Of a stretch of 32,852 nt of DNA, positions 19,710 to 32,707 are shown in pieces. Within the stretch, counting starts at the first letter, position 1; each line of letters starts with the position of its first letter. The position numbers and the translations under genes were made by a program. The notes below the pieces were generated by a model, which made no database searches, was not told the DNA's origin, and saw nothing but the letters and a program-made list of their open reading frames with translations. Location of the stretch: NCBI GenBank assembly GCA_018825385.1, contig JAHJEX010000051.1, positions 1-32,852 on the forward strand, written 5' to 3'. The DNA is from Patescibacteria group bacterium (lineage in GTDB: Bacteria; Patescibacteriota; Patescibacteriia; UM-FILTER-42-10).

Positions 19710-20015
19710 ATGGCTAAAAATACACCCGAGAAAGCATGGTGGCAACCAGCTGTAACAATATTTGGTGAAGTAACTGGGTGGATTGTGGTACCGATTGTAC
19801 TAGCATTATTTTCAGGCAGATATCTAGATGAGAAGAAGGGCACTGAACCATGGTATTTTCTCAGTTTGACAGGAGTAGCGTTTATAATATCTTGTGTAGG
19901 GATTACGATCATAGCTACAAAATATATTAAACAGATTGAAAAAGAAAACAAAAAGAAGTTAAATCAAAAACCGATTAATGAGCAACGAGACAGAAACAAC
20001 AGAAATAGTGAATGA
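19710..20015 (+). CDS. AtpI/AtpZ-like ATP synthase accessory membrane protein
   Basis: First gene of the atp operon; two TMs; WIVVPIVLALFSGRYLDEKKGTEPWYFLSLTGVAFIISCVGI. Confidence 0.75.
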   Translation: MAKNTPEKAWWQPAVTIFGEVTGWIVVPIVLALFSGRYLDEKKGTEPWYFLSLTGVAFIISCVGITIIATKYIKQIEKENKKKLNQKPINEQRDRNNRNSE

Positions 20016-20880
20016 AGAGGTGCACGAGGAAGTTGTAGCCGACCATTCTGAAACCGAAGCAACAAAAACCCACGAAGAAGTTTCCCACGAGGTTACGTTG
20101 TTTGCTGAGCCAGTATTCCATGTTGGAAATTTTCCGGTAACTAATTCGCTTATTAATTCCTGGGTCACAGTATTTATTATAGTTTTGTTCGCGCTCGCAT
20201 TAAAAAGGCGCATTAAAAGAATACCAGAAGGGATCCAGAACGCATTTGAAATTATTGTTGAAGGTGCTCTAAATTTAGCAGATTCTGTTACTGGTGATCG
20301 TAAAAAGAGCCAAAAAGTTTTCCCAATCGTTTTTGCAATATTTATCTTTGTTTTAATAAATAATTGGTTGGGATTAGTTCCTGGAATTGGATCAGTTGGA
20401 TTTATAGAAGAAGGCGGTGGACATTCAGTATTTATACCATTTTTCAGAGGTGGAACCGCAGATTTAAATACAACACTTGCATTGGCACTATTTGCTGTTA
20501 TTGGTTCAAACGTTTTTGGTGTTGTTATTGTAGGTGCATGGAAGTACATGAACAAATTTATAAACATCGAAGCAATCGCTGAAATTCCTAAAAAGATTAG
20601 AAAAGATCCGGCAATAATATTTGTAAACCCCATTAAGGCATTTGTAGGAATTATTGAAATAATTGGTGAATTTGCAAAGATTGCATCGCTATCATTTCGA
20701 CTATTTGGAAATGTTTTTGCAGGTGAGGTCTTGTTATCATCAATGGCTGTAATATTCGCATTTGTCTTGCCTGTACCGTTTATGTTTCTAGAAGTAATTG
20801 TGGGCATTATTCAAGCTATAATCTTCGCGATGTTGACATTAGTGTATTTCACTATTGCTTCCACCGAAGAAGAGCATTAA
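19978..20880 (+). CDS. atpB: F0F1 ATP synthase subunit a
   Basis: Conserved SLSFRLFGNVFAGEVLL, NNWLGLVPGIGSVG; acidic N-terminal extension; overlaps the upstream gene by 38 nt. Confidence 0.93.
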   Translation: MSNETETTEIVNEEVHEEVVADHSETEATKTHEEVSHEVTLFAEPVFHVGNFPVTNSLINSWVTVFIIVLFALALKRRIKRIPEGIQNAFEIIVEGALNLADSVTGDRKKSQKVFPIVFAIFIFVLINNWLGLVPGIGSVGFIEEGGGHSVFIPFFRGGTADLNTTLALALFAVIGSNVFGVVIVGAWKYMNKFINIEAIAEIPKKIRKDPAIIFVNPIKAFVGIIEIIGEFAKIASLSFRLFGNVFAGEVLLSSMAVIFAFVLPVPFMFLEVIVGIIQAIIFAMLTLVYFTIASTEEEH

Positions 20881-20928
20881 TCATTAATGATTTACTAACA
20901 CCGACTATAAACTAAAAAATATATAGCT

Positions 20929-20950
20929 CCCTCGCCCTAAAGGGCTCGGG
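20929..20950. promoter_or_regulatory. GC-rich hairpin in the atpB-atpE intergenic region
   Basis: CCC-TC-GCCC-taaa-GGGC-TC-GGG stem with internal loop in an otherwise AT-rich spacer. Confidence 0.5.
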
Positions 20951-20991
20951 ACAAGAGTCGAGTAGTTAATAAATCTAAAGAAAGGTCGTAA

Positions 20992-21207
<216 letters not shown>

Positions 21208-21219
21208 TCTTATGACGCA

Positions 21220-21245
21220 CAGGAGATTTGATCTCAAATCTCCTG
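21220..21245. promoter_or_regulatory. Perfect inverted repeat in the atpE-atpF intergenic region
   Basis: CAGGAGATTTGA-TC-TCAAATCTCCTG, 12 bp perfect, not followed by a T tract. Confidence 0.75.
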
Positions 21246-21274
21246 AGGTTAGAAGATTAATATAATAAACCCAT

Positions 21275-21775
21275 ATGGATGAATTAGTAAAAACATTTCA
21301 CATTGATTGGAAACTGCTAATAGCGCAGATTATTAACTTTGGCATTGTCCTGGGTGTACTATGGTACTTTGCCCTGAAACCGTTGATGAAAATAATGAAT
21401 AAGCGTAATGAAGATATTGAGCAAAGCCTGAAAAATGCCGAAGAAATTGAAAAGAGGCTAAAGGCAGCTGGTGAAAGTAAAGAACAGATGATTCTTGAAG
21501 CTAAGAAAGAATCCCAAGTAATTATGGAAAATGCAAACAAGGAATCTGAACAACTAAAGAATAGTAAAATAGCGGAAACCAGATCTGAAATAGAAAATAT
21601 TGCTGCAAAAACCAAAGCAAGTTTATTAGCCGATAAAGAAAAAATGATTACTGATGCTAGAAAAGAAGTTGGCGGATTGATAATTGAAGCTAGTTCAAAA
21701 ATAATTGGAAGGAATATAGATTCTGAAACAAATAGAAAAATGGTAGAAGAAACTGTAAAAAAGATTAAAGAATAA
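21275..21775 (+). CDS. atpF: F0F1 ATP synthase subunit b
   Basis: N-terminal TM (LLIAQIINFGIVLGVLWYFALKPLMKIMNKR) then a long charged helix; operon position. Confidence 0.92.
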   Translation: MDELVKTFHIDWKLLIAQIINFGIVLGVLWYFALKPLMKIMNKRNEDIEQSLKNAEEIEKRLKAAGESKEQMILEAKKESQVIMENANKESEQLKNSKIAETRSEIENIAAKTKASLLADKEKMITDARKEVGGLIIEASSKIIGRNIDSETNRKMVEETVKKIKE

Positions 21776-21777
21776 TA

Positions 21778-22176
21778 ATGAGAAAAATCACACCAAGAAA
21801 ATACGCGCAAGGATTATACGAATCACTCCAAGATAAAGATAAGAGTGAAGTTTCGAATACTATTAAATCTTTCATTCAAGTTTTAGTCCGTAACAAAGTT
21901 ATCTCAAAATCTGACAAAATTGTAAAAGCTTTTCATGATTATATATATGAGCAGGAAGGAATTCAGTTGGTATCAGTATACTCTGTTGAAGCATTGAGTA
22001 ACAACCTGAAAAAGGAAATTGAAACTGGTTTGAAAATAGCTTTAAAGAAAGAGATTGAACTAGAAGAGCATATTGATTCATCACTAATCGGTGGGGTAAA
22101 GTTAAAATATGGTGATGTTGAAGCAGATGGTAGTGTCAGAAAGAAAATTGAGAGTCTAGAGAATACAATAGGATAA
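21778..22176 (+). CDS. atpH: F0F1 ATP synthase subunit delta
   Basis: C-terminal IDSSLIGGVKLKYGDVEADGSVRKKIESL; operon position. Confidence 0.9.
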   Translation: MRKITPRKYAQGLYESLQDKDKSEVSNTIKSFIQVLVRNKVISKSDKIVKAFHDYIYEQEGIQLVSVYSVEALSNNLKKEIETGLKIALKKEIELEEHIDSSLIGGVKLKYGDVEADGSVRKKIESLENTIG

Positions 22177-22211
22177 ATTAAATATTTGAATATACAATTA
22201 AAAAAACAACT

Positions 22212-23747
22212 ATGGCAAACAAGGATTACATTATAGAAGAGCTAAAGAAGCAAATTACTGATTATAAAACTTCAGTTTCAAAAGAAAAAATTGGTACGGT
22301 TGAAGAAATTGGTGACGGAATTGCCAGAATATCTGGATTATCTGATACTATGGCTTCAGAAATGCTAGAATTTCCTGGTGGAAAATTTGGCGTATCATTA
22401 AACCTGGAAGAAGATTCGGTCGGTGCTATTATCCTTGGAGAGTACGAGACTATCAAAGAAGGCGATACTGTAAAAAGTACTGGTAGAATTTTAGAAGTTC
22501 CAGTTGGAGAAGCTATGGTTGGTCGTGTAGTCAACCCTTTGGGTGAGCCGATTGACGGAAAGGGTCCTATTAATACTGATACATATTATCCAATCGAAAA
22601 GATTGCGCCTCGTGTAATCACTCGTCAGTCAGTAAATACCCCAGTGCAAACAGGAGTCAAAGCAATCGATGCCATGATTCCTATCGGCCGTGGTCAGCGC
22701 GAATTAATTATCGGTGATAGACAAACTGGTAAAACAGCTTTGGCAATTGATACAATAATCAACCAAAAAGGAAAGAATGAAATTTGTATTTACGTTGCAA
22801 TTGGGCAAAAAGAGTCTAAAGTTGCAAAGATAGTGGCTGAGTTGGAAAAATATGGCGCAATGGAACATACCATTATAGTTTTGGCCGGAGCATCAGACCC
22901 AGCACCTTTGACATTTATTGCACCTTATTCAGGCTGTTCAATGGGAGAATATTTCATGGATCAAGGTAAGGACAGTTTAGTCATATATGATGATCTTTCC
23001 AAACACGCCTGGGCATATCGTCAGATTTCTCTATTATTGAGACGACCTCCTGGACGAGAAGCATATCCGGGCGATGTGTTTTATTTGCATTCTCGTTTAC
23101 TAGAACGTGCTGCAAAGTTAAACAAAGACTACGGTGGAGGCTCATTGACAGCACTTCCGATTATTGAAACACAAGCAGGTGATTTATCTGCCTATATTCC
23201 AACAAATGTAATTTCCATTACAGATGGACAGATCTTTGTAGAATCAGATTTGTTTAATCAGGGTATACGACCGGCATTGAACGTTGGATTGTCAGTTTCC
23301 CGTGTTGGTTCGGCTGCTCAGATTAAAGCCATGAAACAAGTTGCTGGTAAAGTCAGAATTGATTTGGCTCAGTATCGTGAACTTGCAGCCTTTGCTCAGT
23401 TTGGATCAGATCTTGATGAAGCAACTCGAACACAGTTAGAAAGAGGAAAAAGACTAACAGAAATTCTAAAGCAGGGACAATATGAACCAATGTCTGTTGA
23501 AAACCAAGTTGCAATACTCTATGCGGCTGTGAATGGAATGTTGGATGATGTTCCCGTTGAAAAGATTGCTGAGTTTGAATTAGAATTCCACAAATATCTT
23601 AAAATTTCGAAGAAAGATTTACTTGAAGAAATCCTCAAAAAAGGTGAACTTTCAGAAGGTCTTGAAAATAAATTAAAAGAAGCAATTGAAGAGTTTAAAA
23701 AAACTAAAGACTTTAGTGTATCAGAAGAAGCAGCGGAAAAAAAATAA
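22212..23747 (+). CDS. atpA: F0F1 ATP synthase subunit alpha
   Basis: [49 protein letters not shown]. Confidence 0.97.
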
Positions 23748-23765
23748 TAAAAAACTACAGATAAT

Positions 23766-24683
23766 ATGCCAGTAGCGACACGAGATATTAATAGAAGAAT
23801 TAAGTCCATAGCTAATACTAAGAAAATTACTAAGGCTATGGAAATGGTTTCAGCTTCCAAAATGAGGAAAGCTGTTAATGCTGTATTGGCTACAAGAGAT
23901 TATTCAAACTCTGCATGGGATTTGGTAAAAAATCTATCTGCTAAAACGGATTCTTCTCTACATCCTCTATTACAAAAAAGAAATAAAGTTAAGAATGTTG
24001 GATTAATACTTATCACGTCCAATAGAGGTTTATGCGGCAGCTTTAACAGAGATATAGTTGATGAGGTTGCAAAATATGTGCAACATCATAAAAAGGAACA
24101 CGTTGATGTTGAGGCAGAAGTAATACTGATGGGATCTAAAGGTCAGGATATAATGTTCCGTCATGGTCACAATATTGTTGCAGAATTTGCTAAGCTGGAT
24201 ATGCATAGTAGGATTACCGAAGTTACTCCAATTTCTCGAATGGTTATTAAAGATTTTCTTTCAGGAAAATACGATAAAGTTTCTATTGCATATACTGATT
24301 ACAAATCAGTAATTTCCCAAAAACCAACTATAAGAAAAATTTTGCCAATTAGTGGAGAAGATGAGGAACTTGGTTTTGTTGGTAAAGAATCTCCCAGCAC
24401 AGAGGAAAAAGTTACTAAAGATGAATTTGAGTATCTTTTTGAACCAACGCCTGATGCTGTTTTGGACCAGATGCTTTATCGTCTAATAGAGCTTCAAATA
24501 TATCAAGCGCTTTTAGAATCCAATGCTTCAGAGCATTCAGCTAGAATGTTGTCTATGCGTAATGCATCTGATGCGGCTAGCGATATGATTGAGGATTTAA
24601 CATTATACTTTAATCAGGCAAGACAACAAGCTATTACGTCAGAACTGGCAGATATTAGTGCTGGCCGAGCGGCCGTTGAATAA
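23766..24683 (+). CDS. atpG: F0F1 ATP synthase subunit gamma
   Basis: DINRRIKSIANTKKITKAMEMVSASKMRKA; C-terminal EHSARMLSMRNASDAASDMIEDLTLYFNQARQQAITSEL. Confidence 0.96.
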   Translation: MPVATRDINRRIKSIANTKKITKAMEMVSASKMRKAVNAVLATRDYSNSAWDLVKNLSAKTDSSLHPLLQKRNKVKNVGLILITSNRGLCGSFNRDIVDEVAKYVQHHKKEHVDVEAEVILMGSKGQDIMFRHGHNIVAEFAKLDMHSRITEVTPISRMVIKDFLSGKYDKVSIAYTDYKSVISQKPTIRKILPISGEDEELGFVGKESPSTEEKVTKDEFEYLFEPTPDAVLDQMLYRLIELQIYQALLESNASEHSARMLSMRNASDAASDMIEDLTLYFNQARQQAITSELADISAGRAAVE

Positions 24684-24712
24684 GTTTATATTTTAGAAAT
24701 TATTAATTATAG

Positions 24713-26104
<1,392 letters not shown>

Positions 26105-26112
26105 TTACAATT

Positions 26113-26556
26113 ATGGCTGAAAAACTACAATTTGAAATTACAACTCCTGAAGGCAAAATCTATTCTGAACGGGTAGATGAAGTAATTCTGCCAACGCCAA
26201 ATGGTGAAATAGGAATACTTCCAAACCACATTCCTTTGGTTTCTCTATTGTCTCCCGGGGAAGTAAGAATTAAAGTAGGTTCTGAAGAAACATATTTGGC
26301 AGTATCGGGCGGGTTTATTGAAGTAAGACCTGATAAAATATTGGTATTAGCTGATACCGCAGAACACGCTGATGAAATTGATGAAGCTCGAGCAGAAGCT
26401 GCCAAAATTAAAGCGCAAGAGCTGGCAAATGTTAAAAGAACTGATGCAAAAGAATTTGCTGCACTTACTGCAAAGATTGAAAAAGAATTTGCAAGACTGA
26501 AAGTTGTTCAGAGAAGGCGCAGAAGAAGAAATATTCCACCTCCAACCGGAAATTAA
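26113..26556 (+). CDS. atpC: F0F1 ATP synthase subunit epsilon
   Basis: LQFEITTPEGKIYSERVDEVILPTPNGEIGILPNHIPLVSLL; Arg-rich C-terminal tail. Confidence 0.94.
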   Translation: MAEKLQFEITTPEGKIYSERVDEVILPTPNGEIGILPNHIPLVSLLSPGEVRIKVGSEETYLAVSGGFIEVRPDKILVLADTAEHADEIDEARAEAAKIKAQELANVKRTDAKEFAALTAKIEKEFARLKVVQRRRRRRNIPPPTGN

Positions 26557-26571
26557 TCCTAATTCAAAACT

Positions 26572-26994
26572 ATGTCACATCGTGCAAAAGCCCTAATAGT
26601 ATCCTGTATGGATTTTCGTTTTCAAGATGCTGTCAATGATTTTTCAGAAGACCTGCGAGTTGAAGGTTCCTATGATTTGATAACTATTCCAGGTGTGGCA
26701 AAAAATCTGTCACGACCTGACAGTGATGAATTAAAAAATTATTTACTGAACACTATTGAGAAATCATATCAGCTACATGATATTGCAAAAGTAATAATTA
26801 TAAACCACCAAGATTGTGGGGGTTACGAAAAATATGATGATGAGCAGAGCGAGAGGGTGCAGCATTTCACAGATTTAAAGAAGGCAGGAAAAATAATTGA
26901 AGGCAATTTTCCAGAATTAAAGGTAAAACTATATTTTGCAAATATCAAGGAGAAAGGAAATAAAAGAGAGATAGATTTTGAAGAAGTAAAATAA
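26572..26994 (+). CDS. Small beta-carbonic-anhydrase-like protein
   Basis: SCMDFRF (Cys-x-Asp-x-Arg) and NHQDCGGY (His-x2-Cys) match beta-CA zinc-ligand motifs; 16 nt after atpC. Confidence 0.65.
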   Translation: MSHRAKALIVSCMDFRFQDAVNDFSEDLRVEGSYDLITIPGVAKNLSRPDSDELKNYLLNTIEKSYQLHDIAKVIIINHQDCGGYEKYDDEQSERVQHFTDLKKAGKIIEGNFPELKVKLYFANIKEKGNKREIDFEEVK

Positions 26995-27002
26995 ACTAAA
27001 CT

Positions 27003-27031
27003 AAAAACAGGCTCTTCTTGAGCCTGTTTTT
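27003..27031. terminator. Bidirectional intrinsic terminator
   Basis: AAAAACAGGCTC-ttctt-GAGCCTGTTTTT, 12 bp stem between convergent genes. Confidence 0.88.
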
Positions 27032-27042
27032 GAATTGCTGTA

Positions 27043-27807
27043 TTAAACTGGCCTCAATGTTCCAGCCCATACTTGCCAGGCCAACAATGATTTTGCTACT
27101 AGACTAAGTACGATGTAAGCTTTTTCACCATAAAGATAGTTTTTCCATTTACCAACTTTTTTATACTGCAGAATCATGTTAATTGCAAAGACATTGAAAA
27201 ATAGAAATATGGAGAAGAATATCCAGTAAACAAAAGAAGGTGGGCCTTGTGTCTCACTGCCAGCAAATCCCAAATATAGTGCTATTGCTACCCAGGGTAT
27301 TGCACCTGCCAGTACGCCAAACCAATATGATGTCCAATTGGTTTTTTCAGTAGTCTGATTGTGCAATTCCATCACCCAACCAAAGAGAATCATCATCATA
27401 TTTAGAAAAAACATAAGCATCAAACTAACACCGTCATACATACCTGTAAGCATGGCGATAACTATTATCATCAGCGAAGAACTGAAAGAATACTCTATCC
27501 ATCGCGTATAATTAGTCCCTCTCTTCAGATTTTTGTTATACCATTCGTTAATCTTTGGCATAGCAATAAGAAGATGTGCCAGTGCCGATAACAGTAGAAA
27601 GCCAGCTACCAGGGGACCAACAGAGATTGAGAAGGCCTCTTTAAGCACTGGTTCTAGCTTCTGAGTTTGAGCGTTGAACTCAACAAAAACTGTAGTTATT
27701 GGAAGTGAAAAATTACTACTCAAAGCAAACATAGCAATTCCCTGTGCAAGATGAAAAAAGGCCATTATTAAATTAAACTTTCTTAGTCCTCTAAATCGCT
27801 TTTCCAT
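27043..27807 (-). CDS. Heliorhodopsin
   Basis: Seven hydrophobic segments; RWIEYSFSSSLMI, GVLAGAIPWVAIALY, GKWKNYLYGEKAYIVLSLVAKSLLAWQVWAGTLRPV match the remembered heliorhodopsin signature, including the Schiff-base Lys in SLVAKS. Start at 27807 (AAGGA SD) preferred over the ORF start at 27834. Confidence 0.93.
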   Translation of the reverse strand: MEKRFRGLRKFNLIMAFFHLAQGIAMFALSSNFSLPITTVFVEFNAQTQKLEPVLKEAFSISVGPLVAGFLLLSALAHLLIAMPKINEWYNKNLKRGTNYTRWIEYSFSSSLMIIVIAMLTGMYDGVSLMLMFFLNMMMILFGWVMELHNQTTEKTNWTSYWFGVLAGAIPWVAIALYLGFAGSETQGPPSFVYWIFFSIFLFFNVFAINMILQYKKVGKWKNYLYGEKAYIVLSLVAKSLLAWQVWAGTLRPV

Positions 27808-27862
27808 GTTTTGTTCCTTGTTGGTTTCCCCCATTGTTTTTTGCTTAATAATTTATGGTTAA

Positions 27863-27977: not shown

Positions 27978-29237
27978 CTATTTTCTGGATTTCCAGTTGC
28001 TTCTTACAATCCACTTATTACTTGTAAGTTCACGCAGTCCCATGGGGCCACGTGCATGAAGTTTCTGAGTTGATATTCCGACTTCAGCGCCTAAACCAAA
28101 TTGAAAGCCGTCTGTGAATCGTGTAGATGTGTTTACATATACTGTGGCGGCATCAATGATTTGCAAAAACTGTTTACCCAATTTCTCGTTTCTGGTAAGG
28201 ATTGCTTCTGAATGACCTGAAGTATTTTTCTGGATGAAATTAAATGCTTCACTTGCATTTTTAACTGTCTTAACTGACATTTTTAGGCTGAGGTATTCTT
28301 TTCCAAAATCGTTTTTAGATGCATGTTTCAATAGCTTCTCAGGATAGTAGCTTTTTAGTGTTTTATAACTTGAAGGGTCTGCTTTGATTACTACTTTGTG
28401 CTTTGAAAGCCTTCTGGCAACAGCCGGAAGAAATTCATTTGCTATTGATTGATCTAAAACTAATGTATCCAGTGCATTACACACTGTTGGTCTTTGTGTC
28501 TTAGCATTTTCAACTATCTTTGCTGCTTTTTTTAGATTGGCAGTTTTTTCTACATAAGTATGACAAACACCCGCACCTGTTTCAATAATAGGGACACTGG
28601 CATTATCTCTGACAAAATTAATTAGCTTTCGTCCACCACGTGGGATTATTACATCAACATATTTGTTTAAACGCAATAGTTTCGCTATTAGTGATTTTTG
28701 GGAAGTGTCCAATAGTTGAACAGTATATTTTGAAAAGCCATGCTTCACTAATGCCCGCTGTATTAACAGTACTAATAATTTGTTAGTCGAATCTGCATCT
28801 TTTCCTCCTTTTAATATAATTGCATTACCGGATTTTAAAGCCAGGCTAGAAATTTCTACAGTAGCGTTTGGCCGTGACTCGTATATGATTCCTAGAACGC
28901 CAATCGGGGATCTAACAAGTGATATGTCCAAACCGTTTGACTGTCTTCTTTTTTCAATTACTTCCCCAATCGGATCGGATAGTTTTACCACAGCTAGCAA
29001 GCTTTCTCTAATCTCTTTCAGTCGCTTTGAATTTAGCATCAGTCTATCGGAAAGAGGATGATTTTCACCTTGCCTTAGTACATCTCTTCTGTTCGCTCTT
29101 AAAATGGCTTTTTCATTCAAGCGAATAAGCGAAGCAATTGTTTTTAAAATTGAGTTCTTCTTGTTCGTTGAAGCTTGAGAAAACAAACGGGAAGCATCTT
29201 TTGCATGTTTCCCCATTGTTAACATTGAATTACTCAT
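27978..29237 (-). CDS. proA: Glutamate-5-semialdehyde dehydrogenase (gamma-glutamyl phosphate reductase)
   Basis: LVRSPIGVLGIIYESRPNATVEISSLALKSGNAIILKGGKDA, VIIPRGGRKLINFV, QRPTVCNALDTLVLD, GLGAEVGISTQKLHARGPMGLRELTS. Confidence 0.95.
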   Translation of the reverse strand: MSNSMLTMGKHAKDASRLFSQASTNKKNSILKTIASLIRLNEKAILRANRRDVLRQGENHPLSDRLMLNSKRLKEIRESLLAVVKLSDPIGEVIEKRRQSNGLDISLVRSPIGVLGIIYESRPNATVEISSLALKSGNAIILKGGKDADSTNKLLVLLIQRALVKHGFSKYTVQLLDTSQKSLIAKLLRLNKYVDVIIPRGGRKLINFVRDNASVPIIETGAGVCHTYVEKTANLKKAAKIVENAKTQRPTVCNALDTLVLDQSIANEFLPAVARRLSKHKVVIKADPSSYKTLKSYYPEKLLKHASKNDFGKEYLSLKMSVKTVKNASEAFNFIQKNTSGHSEAILTRNEKLGKQFLQIIDAATVYVNTSTRFTDGFQFGLGAEVGISTQKLHARGPMGLRELTSNKWIVRSNWKSRK

Positions 29238-30045
29238 ATTTTTTTGAGATTACTTTTGCTTTTTGGTATGCAGCCTGCACAGCACTTTTCCAGATTTTTA
29301 CAAATTGAGGACCTAACTTGTTCAGCGCTGCCTCGGTTATACCCTTTTTTGATGTAACAGCTTTCCTAAGCTCTGCAGAAGAGCGGGCATCACTTTCTGA
29401 AAGCTGTGCCGCACCGTGGAAAGTTTCGGTTACTAACTGAGCAGCTTCATCTTTTGTAAATCCAAGTCCACAAGCTTGCTGTTCCAGTAGCTCTGCTGTG
29501 TAAAAAAAGTAAGCGGGCCCGCTACCGCTGATTGCGGTTACTTTATCAATCATGGATTCATTTTTAACTTGAAAAGAAATTCCCATAACAGACAACAAAC
29601 TCATAATTATAGTTTTATTCTTTTTGGCAATGTTTGTAGGTGCGTACCATGCGGTAATACTTTTTCCTATTTTGGCTGCTAGATTGGGCATTGTTCTAAC
29701 AATGTTTTTGTGAGCCAGACGATTGGATAATGCTTTATAAGTGACACCAGCAATTACCGAGATTACCAGTTGGTTATCTTTCAGTTTTTCCTCTAATTCT
29801 TCTGCTACTAATTTATACTGCTGAGGCTTCACGGCTAAAAATATAATATTTGCAGATTTAATTGCCTGAAAAACATTTTTCTCCGACTTAATCCCAATTC
29901 TTTCGATTGCGGATCTCACAGACTGGGATTGATCGCATCCCACTAAACTTTTTTTTGCAGTCAACTCTGCCGCTAGTAATCTTTCCATAATTACAGTGCC
30001 CATATTTCCGCATCCGATTATTGATATTTTGTATGGCTTTTTCAT
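29230..30045 (-). CDS. proC: Pyrroline-5-carboxylate reductase
   Basis: ISIIGCGNMGTVIMERLL, FLAVKPQQ, IVRTMPNLAAKIGKSITAW, AISGSGPAYFFYTAELLEQ. Confidence 0.94.
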   Translation of the reverse strand: MKKPYKISIIGCGNMGTVIMERLLAAELTAKKSLVGCDQSQSVRSAIERIGIKSEKNVFQAIKSANIIFLAVKPQQYKLVAEELEEKLKDNQLVISVIAGVTYKALSNRLAHKNIVRTMPNLAAKIGKSITAWYAPTNIAKKNKTIIMSLLSVMGISFQVKNESMIDKVTAISGSGPAYFFYTAELLEQQACGLGFTKDEAAQLVTETFHGAAQLSESDARSSAELRKAVTSKKGITEAALNKLGPQFVKIWKSAVQAAYQKAKVISKKYE

Positions 30046-31121
30046 AGTACTCTTAGGTTATCTACGTGAATGACTTCACGTTTAAGTATTTTAGGATTAT
30101 CCAGTGCATGAATTAGCTCTTTAGAGGAATAATTTACCACTCCAAAACCAATTACCTGCTTGTTTTGATCCAGTACTTCAATTATTTCTTTATTTCCGAA
30201 AGATCCTTGAATTGATTTTACCCCCACCATCAGTAAGCTTTTTCTATTTTGCAGTGCTTGAGCTGCTCCCTTATCCACCATAACACCGGCTGAAGTATTT
30301 TTTGCACACAAAATCCATCTATCTTTAGCAGAAAGTTTACACTCCTTGGCAATAAATTTTGTGCCGATCTTCTCATCAGCAATAATTTTAGAGATATTAT
30401 TAGGGATTAGTCCACTAGCTATCCATGTGGTAATTCCAGCGCTGGCAGCAATTTGAGCTGCATTAACTTTTGAATACATGCCACCTATTCCATGAGTTGA
30501 AATAGTGTCATCAGAAATAGCAGAAAAAATATCCTGTGCATCATTCACTTCTCTTATTAATTTTGCATTATTACTTTCAGTTTCCGGGTTTTCAGTCATC
30601 ACCCCTTCTTGGTTTGTAAGAAGTAAAAGTCTGGAGGCATCTATTGCAATTGCAGTCGCAGCTGCTAATACATCGTTGTCTCCAAAAGAAAGCTCATGAA
30701 CTGCAATTACATCATTCTCATTGATAATCGGCACAATGTCGTTTGTTAGCAATCCTTTAAGAGTGCGCAATGCGTTATCATAGCGTGAACGTTCACTAAA
30801 GTCGTCACGGGTTAATAGCACCTGCCCAACGTTTACCCTATGCTGCCTAAATAGCTTTTCATATTCATGCATTAAACGAGCTTGTCCAACTGCCGCATAA
30901 ACTTGTCGACCCGTTGTTGTTTCAGTTTCTTTTGATAAATTTGCAACTTCTTTTCCGGCAGCAACAGCACCGGAAGAAACCAGAACCGGCTTATATCCTT
31001 TCATGCGCAGGTAAACTAATTGTTCAGTAAGACCAGACAAAAGACTGCGATTTAGTTTTGAACCATTCGCAGTTAATATGTGGGTACCAACTTTGATAGC
31101 GACTATGTTTTTATTTGCCAT
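30042..31121 (-). CDS. proB: Glutamate 5-kinase with C-terminal PUA domain
   Basis: IVAIKVGTHIL, VLVSSGAVAAG, PIINENDVIAV, FGDNDVLAAATA, HGIGGMYSKVNAAQIAASAGITTWIASG. Confidence 0.95.
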   Translation of the reverse strand: MANKNIVAIKVGTHILTANGSKLNRSLLSGLTEQLVYLRMKGYKPVLVSSGAVAAGKEVANLSKETETTTGRQVYAAVGQARLMHEYEKLFRQHRVNVGQVLLTRDDFSERSRYDNALRTLKGLLTNDIVPIINENDVIAVHELSFGDNDVLAAATAIAIDASRLLLLTNQEGVMTENPETESNNAKLIREVNDAQDIFSAISDDTISTHGIGGMYSKVNAAQIAASAGITTWIASGLIPNNISKIIADEKIGTKFIAKECKLSAKDRWILCAKNTSAGVMVDKGAAQALQNRKSLLMVGVKSIQGSFGNKEIIEVLDQNKQVIGFGVVNYSSKELIHALDNPKILKREVIHVDNLRVL

Positions 31122-31219: not shown

Positions 31220-31591
31220 TTATTGCATTACCTCCGGTATGTGATCCAGCTTCCTGAAATGCCTAAACATCGAGGAGAGCTGTGCGGTTCTCAGCACTCT
31301 TTTGATCTGAGCACTGGCACCGATGATAACGATAGGTTCAGTATGACCTGCGGCCTGGAACATCTTCATCAAGACTACCAGGATGCCGATGCCGCTGGAA
31401 CTCATCTGTTCGACGCCGGAAAGGTCGAACACGACCTGATTGAACTGCAGGAATTCCCTGGCGTGAAGCAGAGGCTCATCCCTGATCAGGTGTTCGTTGA
31501 AGTCGTTTGCACTGTTTCGGAACTTGCCTTCAAGTATGATCAAAAGAAGGCTGCCCCGGGCTTCCAGACTACGTTTCATGTAATCGGTCAT
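31220..31591 (-). CDS. STAS-domain protein (anti-sigma factor antagonist-like)
   Basis: VVFDLSGVEQMSSSGIGILVVLMKMFQAAG...VIIGASAQIKRVLRTAQLSSMFRHF. ATG 31591 preceded by AAGGTGG; the upstream GTG at 31603 is an alternative start. Confidence 0.8.
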   Translation of the reverse strand: MTDYMKRSLEARGSLLLIILEGKFRNSANDFNEHLIRDEPLLHAREFLQFNQVVFDLSGVEQMSSSGIGILVVLMKMFQAAGHTEPIVIIGASAQIKRVLRTAQLSSMFRHFRKLDHIPEVMQ

Positions 31592-31650
31592 TGTTCTCAC
31601 CACCTTGGGAGGTATGTTAGAAAGGGCAGTCTATTTACAAAATTCTTACC

Positions 31651-31765: not shown

Positions 31766-31783
31766 ATAAATATGTGTATAAAT

Positions 31784-32707
31784 ATGCCAAAAACAATTAA
31801 AGAAGAGAGGTTGAGATGGATAATACCCATCTACAACAAAGAGATGAAACTAAAGGAAATAGCTAAAGTATGTCCACATTCCCAAAGGAGTTTGGAAAGG
31901 TGGGTGTCTGCATACAGAAAATATGGAGAAGCTGGCTTAGAGCCAAAATCAACAAGACCAAGGACTAATCCAAAAGAAACACCAATAAGGATAAAAGAAA
32001 AGGTGATTGAATTAAGAAAAGAAACAAAACGATGTGCTTTAAAACTAAAATGGCAATTAGGAAAAGAAGGGATCATAATCCACAGAAACACAATTCAAAA
32101 GATAATTAAAAAAGAGGGTTTAGTAAGAAAATACAGAATTAGAAAGCTAAAATACAAGTATATAAAAGTCCCTCTCGGAAAAGGAGAACTGGTGGAAATA
32201 GATGTTAAATATGTTCCTGATTTCGTCAAAAACAAACAGTATTATCAGTTTACTGCCATTGATTGCGCTTCAAGATGGAGATATTTAAAAATCTACAACA
32301 GCTATTCAAACTCTGACTCAATAGATTTTCTTCAAGAATTAACCAAAATTGCTCCATTTAGAATCCGAGCCATCAAAACAGATAATGGCAGTAATTTCAC
32401 TAATAGATATACTGGTTATCTAAAAAGCTCAGATCCAATCAACCCCAGACTGCACGACCTTGATATTTTGTGTCAAAAACTAAATATTATTCATTACTTG
32501 ATTGATCCCGGAAAACCGGCCCAAAATGGCAAGGTTGAAAGAAGTCATCGCTCGGACCAGGAAACATTTTACGATAGAAACACATTCAAAACATTAAAAG
32601 AGTTGGAAGCAAAGATTAGAATCTGGAATAAAGAATACAACAATCTTGAGCACTGTGGTCTAAATGGAAAAACACCCAATGAAATGCTAGAATTACTAAG
32701 TAATTAA
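31784..32707 (+). CDS. IS481-like DDE transposase (integrase core domain)
   Basis: N-terminal HTH (KLKEIAKVCPHSQRSLERWVSAYRKYGEAGL), D in VEIDVKY, D in IKTDNGSNF, E in NGKVERSHRSDQETFY. ORF opens at 31772 (alternative start). Confidence 0.9.
   Translation: MPKTIKEERLRWIIPIYNKEMKLKEIAKVCPHSQRSLERWVSAYRKYGEAGLEPKSTRPRTNPKETPIRIKEKVIELRKETKRCALKLKWQLGKEGIIIHRNTIQKIIKKEGLVRKYRIRKLKYKYIKVPLGKGELVEIDVKYVPDFVKNKQYYQFTAIDCASRWRYLKIYNSYSNSDSIDFLQELTKIAPFRIRAIKTDNGSNFTNRYTGYLKSSDPINPRLHDLDILCQKLNIIHYLIDPGKPAQNGKVERSHRSDQETFYDRNTFKTLKELEAKIRIWNKEYNNLEHCGLNGKTPNEMLELLSN

Follow-up and report, generated by a model that had tools for sequence, protein, structure and literature searches.

The hydrogen-bond network of 48C12, an actinobacterial heliorhodopsin, comprises N16, H23, Q26, S76, H80, Y92, R104, E107, Y108, S111, E149, E230, S237, K241, and W246 (PMC9726877), and Q216 has been added to it (PMC9448325). 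Proton transport by V2HeR3, from the Emiliania huxleyi virus, requires E191, together with W195, and the equivalents of this pair in TaHeR are I199 and F203 (PMC9448325). Regulatory roles have precedent as well, with one heliorhodopsin regulating glutamine synthetase, in glutamate metabolism (PMC9529153), another regulating an ABC transporter (PMC11109279), and a third regulating photolyase, to which it acts as a helper (PMC9769723). For the CPR, Chiriac et al. scanned 1326 genomes in 2022 and reported heliorhodopsins from several classes, among them Saccharimonadia (80), Dojkabacteria (7), and ABY1 (3); SLVAK was one of the commonest motifs of these proteins (PMC9166423). Bulzu et al. described heliorhodopsins across monoderm phyla in 2021 and mentioned Patescibacteria (PMC8612252). 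As for the chromophore, the apoproteins of Saccharibacteria rhodopsins take up outside retinal, and rapid retinal binding by TaHeR is cited in the same study (PMC9296517).

Our literature search found no paper pairing Kerfeldbacteria with a rhodopsin. The window analyzed here is a 32,852-nucleotide stretch of a Patescibacteria genome whose class we take, from the placement of Kerfeldbacteria, to be ABY1 of GTDB. We are fairly confident that it carries a canonical, probably functional stand-alone heliorhodopsin from a Kerfeldbacteria-like ABY1 member, one that would work with imported retinal as a light-driven modulator and not as a pump.

Identity of the Protein and Its Retinal Pocket

The ORF occupies 27043..27834 and encodes 263 amino acids, precisely as the initial annotation had it; the strand, which was left unstated there, is minus, and the plus strand across the same interval is riddled with stop codons. 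Searching the protein against Pfam with hmmscan gave a match to the heliorhodopsin profile PF18761 at E=1.4e-100 and 336.1 bits (cut-off 26.7) that covers the entire model, positions 1-242 of 242, and a match of this strength over the full profile rules out chance. No other Pfam family was matched up to E=1, and the type-1 profile PF01036 was among those left unmatched. When the PDB was searched with phmmer, all six sequences matched were heliorhodopsins, including 6is6 (TaHeR, E=1.7e-79), 9ljj (48C12-type, E=1.1e-61), and 6su3 (48C12, E=1.3e-61). Alignment to TaHeR 6is6 showed 140 identical columns in 257 (54%) and alignment to the 48C12-type chain showed 113 in 252 (45%). The whole genome of the window contains this one heliorhodopsin match only. 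At the level of sequence, these results confirm a genuine, intact, full-length heliorhodopsin, and they uphold the earlier assignment of the protein to this family and not to the type-1 pumps. A simple hydropathy scan did not cleanly resolve seven helices; seven helices in the inverted topology, with a cytoplasmic N-terminus, are implied by the identity to TaHeR.

Each motif quoted in the initial annotation was located: FFHLAQ with His28, ALAH with His87, RWIEYSFSSS with Glu114, and SLVAK with Lys248. All four residue assignments are correct, with His28, His87, Glu114, and Lys248 aligning to His23, His80, Glu107, and Lys241 of 48C12 and to His23, His82, Glu108, and Lys238 of TaHeR. SLVAK is the SxxxK retinal-binding motif of helix 7, in which Ser244 and Lys248 align with Ser237 and Lys241 of 48C12. 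The single Glu counterion (Glu114) and both histidines of the Schiff-base cavity (His28 and His87) are thus in place. Comparison across the 48C12 network showed identity at 16 of the 16 residues checked (48C12/ORF: N16/N21, H23/H28, Q26/Q31, S76/S83, H80/H87, Y92/Y99, R104/R111, E107/E114, Y108/Y115, S111/S118, E149/E156, Q216/Q223, E230/E237, S237/S244, K241/K248, and W246/W253).

A full heliorhodopsin is present in 24 of the 381 sampled genomes of the class, distributed over 11 families, and all three sampled genomes of the window's own family have one. In 48C12 numbering, K241, E107, H23, and H80 are invariant in these 24 proteins, and S76 differs in one of them. The positions of V2HeR3 E191 and W195 are occupied by Ile209 and Phe213 in the ORF, and by an aliphatic residue and Phe throughout the 24. 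Because V2HeR3 depends on the E191/W195 pair to carry protons and the ORF lacks it, the protein is not expected to be a proton transporter.

Retinal Supply

The initial annotation had seen no retinal biosynthesis gene in the window and had suggested that retinal is scavenged. Extending the search to whole genomes, we found phytoene synthase (PF00494) in 0 of the 24 heliorhodopsin-bearing class genomes, with the same search positive in 7 of 14 controls, and an RPE65-type carotenoid cleavage enzyme likewise in 0 of the 24, with two controls positive. The absence of these two genes therefore holds genome-wide. Brp/Blh (PF15461) went unmatched in 9 heliorhodopsin-bearing class genomes, in 17 further genomes reached through their heliorhodopsin loci, and in 380 genomes of the phylum, but the controls were blank too, so that for this enzyme the result is a lack of matches and falls short of proving absence. 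A cell lacking phytoene synthase has no de novo carotenoid and must import retinal, or else carotene should a cleavage enzyme have escaped the searches, and heliorhodopsin-bearing members of the class probably import retinal.

Photolyase (PF00875) was found in none of the 24 carriers, with 8 controls positive; in the class as a whole it was found in just 5 of 381 genomes, with matches above the cut-off in 4. The photolyase-helper role is accordingly rejected for the carriers. With phytoene synthase, RPE65, and photolyase all missing from the carriers, imported retinal is the most likely supply and a photolyase-helper role is impossible there, which narrows the range of proposed heliorhodopsin functions that can apply in the CPR.

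The same three absences, together with record titles that trace several of the relatives to groundwater, would also suit an opsin with a light-independent role in dark habitats. Against this reading, all 24 proteins share Lys248 and almost the complete retinal pocket network, a degree of conservation that would be unexpected without retinal binding, and we regard a role of this kind as very improbable. The retention of an invariant retinal pocket in lineages with several groundwater members is of some interest in itself.

Gene Organization and Neighborhood

No Shine-Dalgarno sequence precedes the ATG at 27834. An in-frame ATG at 27807, the tenth codon, lies seven bases past an AAGGA and nearer the conserved region, and for these two reasons Met10 is the likely true start, giving a predicted protein of 254 amino acids. 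Two sigma-70-like promoter matches were identified on the minus strand by a consensus scan, each with 10 of 12 positions: TTTATA-16-TATAAT at 27930-27903 and TTGGTA-17-TATAAT at 27891-27863. Both fall within the 143 bp that separate proA from the heliorhodopsin gene. The region is AT-rich and yields many matches of this kind (27, with 16.6 expected), and on their own they are no evidence of function. Eleven bases past the heliorhodopsin stop codon begins a minus-strand hairpin resembling an intrinsic terminator (27003..27031; 12-bp stem, 5-base loop, then a T-rich stretch). Given this terminator-like hairpin and the promoter-like boxes, the gene is probably monocistronic. The hairpin is symmetrical and may double for the convergent plus-strand gene at 26572..26994, a putative carbonic anhydrase (Pro_CA_2, PF20393).

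Upstream of the heliorhodopsin gene is a proline operon on the minus strand (27978..31121) made up of proB (30042-31121), proC (29230-30045), and proA (27978-29237). Since heliorhodopsin sits directly downstream of proA on the same strand, it could close a proBCA-heliorhodopsin operon, with light regulating the synthesis of proline from glutamate, and the activation of glutamine synthetase by a heliorhodopsin offers a precedent in glutamate metabolism (PMC9529153). Yet just 2 of the 24 heliorhodopsin-bearing class genomes, the window's own counted, have a proA relative, and neither of the same-family genomes, where heliorhodopsin has other neighbors, is among them. The glutamine synthetase analogy is therefore left without comparative support. 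The two promoter-like boxes inside the 143-bp gap also count against cotranscription. A functional operon was rejected on the 22 of 24 carriers that have no proA, and light control of proline synthesis appears very improbable. The completeness of the proB-proC-proA set, with proA so rare among carriers, hints that the operon was gained by transfer.

On the other side lies the F1Fo ATP synthase operon (atpB...atpC; 19978..26556, plus strand), whose translations were recognized by homology. Its end and the stop codon of heliorhodopsin, which is encoded on the opposite strand, are 486 bp apart. This arrangement invites the idea that heliorhodopsin moves protons and powers the adjacent H+-type ATP synthase with light. 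Proton transport is possible in viral heliorhodopsins (PMC9448325), ATP synthase genes are near heliorhodopsin in two other families too, and the c subunit (~20990-21206, plus strand) has no obvious Na+ site. It lacks the helix-1 Gln and the Ser/Thr beside the ion-binding Glu, and since these residues are expected of Na+ types, it is probably H+-coupled. However, the ORF has I209/F213 in place of the gating pair E191/W195, all 24 class members have an aliphatic residue and Phe there, V2HeR3 transport is channel-like or inward and would not charge the membrane, and the arrangement near ATP synthase varies among genomes. ATP synthase genes lie six genes or fewer from heliorhodopsin in just 3 of the 24 class members, from three families and in differing arrangements. 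With the proton-transport residues also missing, the link was rejected, and we consider light-powered ATP synthesis very improbable.

Neither the proline nor the ATP-synthase genes are conserved partners of heliorhodopsin, and no signaling gene directly adjoins it in the window. The search for neighbors conserved across the class ended in rejection: the two same-family relatives share a neighborhood that differs from the window's, and the other class members mostly have unrelated genes beside theirs. Near the contig end, a STAS-domain ORF (31220-31603, minus strand) sits beside a transposase (31772-32707, plus strand) that combines an HTH and an rve integrase domain and is probably the repeat that broke the assembly.

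A predicted lipoprotein family of ~170-190 amino acids, with no convincing Pfam match, recurs beside heliorhodopsins elsewhere in the class. It is 1-2 genes upstream in three class members and four genes off in a fourth (loci L096:9202-9759(-), L122:1737-2291(+), L127:5280-5852(+), and L118:3833-4345(-)), and the window's own genome has a copy at G000:C22:24358-24855. Using a query built from the copies near heliorhodopsin, the family was found in 13 of 24 carriers and in 50 of 357 other genomes (Fisher p about 1e-5, kinship ignored), and we treat it as a lead only. Record titles place several relatives in groundwater, where light is scarce, which makes a purely light-driven role less than obvious, and one can picture a subsurface CPR heliorhodopsin whose role needs retinal but not regular light, with this lipoprotein family as its partner. 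Such a protein may, for example, sense or hold retinal obtained from a host or neighbor. If true, this low-light reading would tie heliorhodopsin to an extracellular lipoprotein family adjoining its gene in some relatives, but we consider it a long shot.

By eye, from the translations, a peroxiredoxin-like gene was recognized directly after heliorhodopsin at locus L127 (genome G139) and a convergent MsrA-like gene adjoining it at L095 (G037). These neighbors, each in a single genome, fit the published oxidative-stress idea.

Host Genome and Phylogeny

The genome of the window amounts to 1.27 Mb in 90 contigs, with 90% completeness and 4.6% estimated contamination. Members of the CPR are generally regarded as monoderm. 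The two same-family heliorhodopsins, 74-75% identical to the window's, are encoded on PEXU01000014.1 and PFMD01000083.1 (L011 and L012), which belong to Candidatus Kerfeldbacteria from CG08/CG_4_10 samples. Kinship to these named MAGs shows that the initial annotation was right in assigning the host to Patescibacteria. The phylogeny that it had called for places the protein beside those of the two same-family genomes and a further one of family f42 (SH-aLRT 96), inside a large, mostly CPR group in what is a quick tree with many weak forks. Class members G155 and G175 fall elsewhere in the same tree, outside this group, which suggests that heliorhodopsin was probably acquired more than once within the class.

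The notion that the contig is a contaminant, or the gene a recent arrival from Actinobacteria or archaea and not native to a CPR genome, draws on the fragmented assembly and its contamination estimate but is scarcely credible: the 32.9-kb contig is uniform in GC (38% in the gene, 37% in the window), the ATP synthase operon lies 0.5 kb from the gene, and the gene's nearest relatives are in the same family and within the mostly CPR clade.

Proposed Function

We return to the reading of this protein as a stand-alone, light-driven modulator. All-trans-retinal from the environment or from another cell would bind the opsin through Lys248, a step suggested by the conserved pocket, with uptake suggested by the absent synthesis genes. 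Light would then isomerize the retinal and the Schiff base would be deprotonated. The proton would reach the His87/His28 region by way of Glu114 but would not cross the membrane. The cytoplasmic face would reshape and modulate a partner or signaling protein. The light step and the modulation of a partner are modeled on characterized heliorhodopsins, and no proton pumping or conduction is expected. Judged by its residues, the protein is more likely to be a sensor or regulator than a pump.

The initial annotation had considered a heliorhodopsin in such a cell notable. Heliorhodopsins in the CPR, ABY1 included, are already published (PMC9166423, PMC8612252), and with 24 of 381 class genomes carrying one, the occurrence is not new; it is a well-supported, ordinary find. 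Its value is in adding one clean heliorhodopsin to a CPR class with few reported before.

Comparison with Known Systems

TaHeR, from Thermoplasmatales archaeon SG8-52-1 (PDB 6is6, 7u55), shares 54% identity with the ORF over 257 columns, along with all catalytic and network residues and the nontransporting Ile/Phe pair of helix 6. It differs in its archaeal host, in its position outside the CPR clade of the tree, and in the loop between helices 5 and 6, which is four residues shorter. Actinobacterial 48C12 (PDB 6su3, 6su4) has the same 16 of 16 network residues at 45% identity, as measured with the 48C12-type chain, but sits on a distant branch of the tree. The Kerfeldbacteria heliorhodopsins on PEXU01000014.1 and PFMD01000083.1 come from the same family and are 74-75% identical, although their neighborhood is unlike the window's. 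Relative to the CPR heliorhodopsins of Chiriac et al., three of them in ABY1 (PMC9166423), the class and the SLVAK motif are the same and we saw no difference in kind. Finally, SacR of Saccharibacteria is also a CPR rhodopsin from a genome in which no retinal synthesis genes were found (PMC9296517), but the SacR proteins are type-1 outward proton pumps, whereas the protein encoded in the window is a heliorhodopsin.
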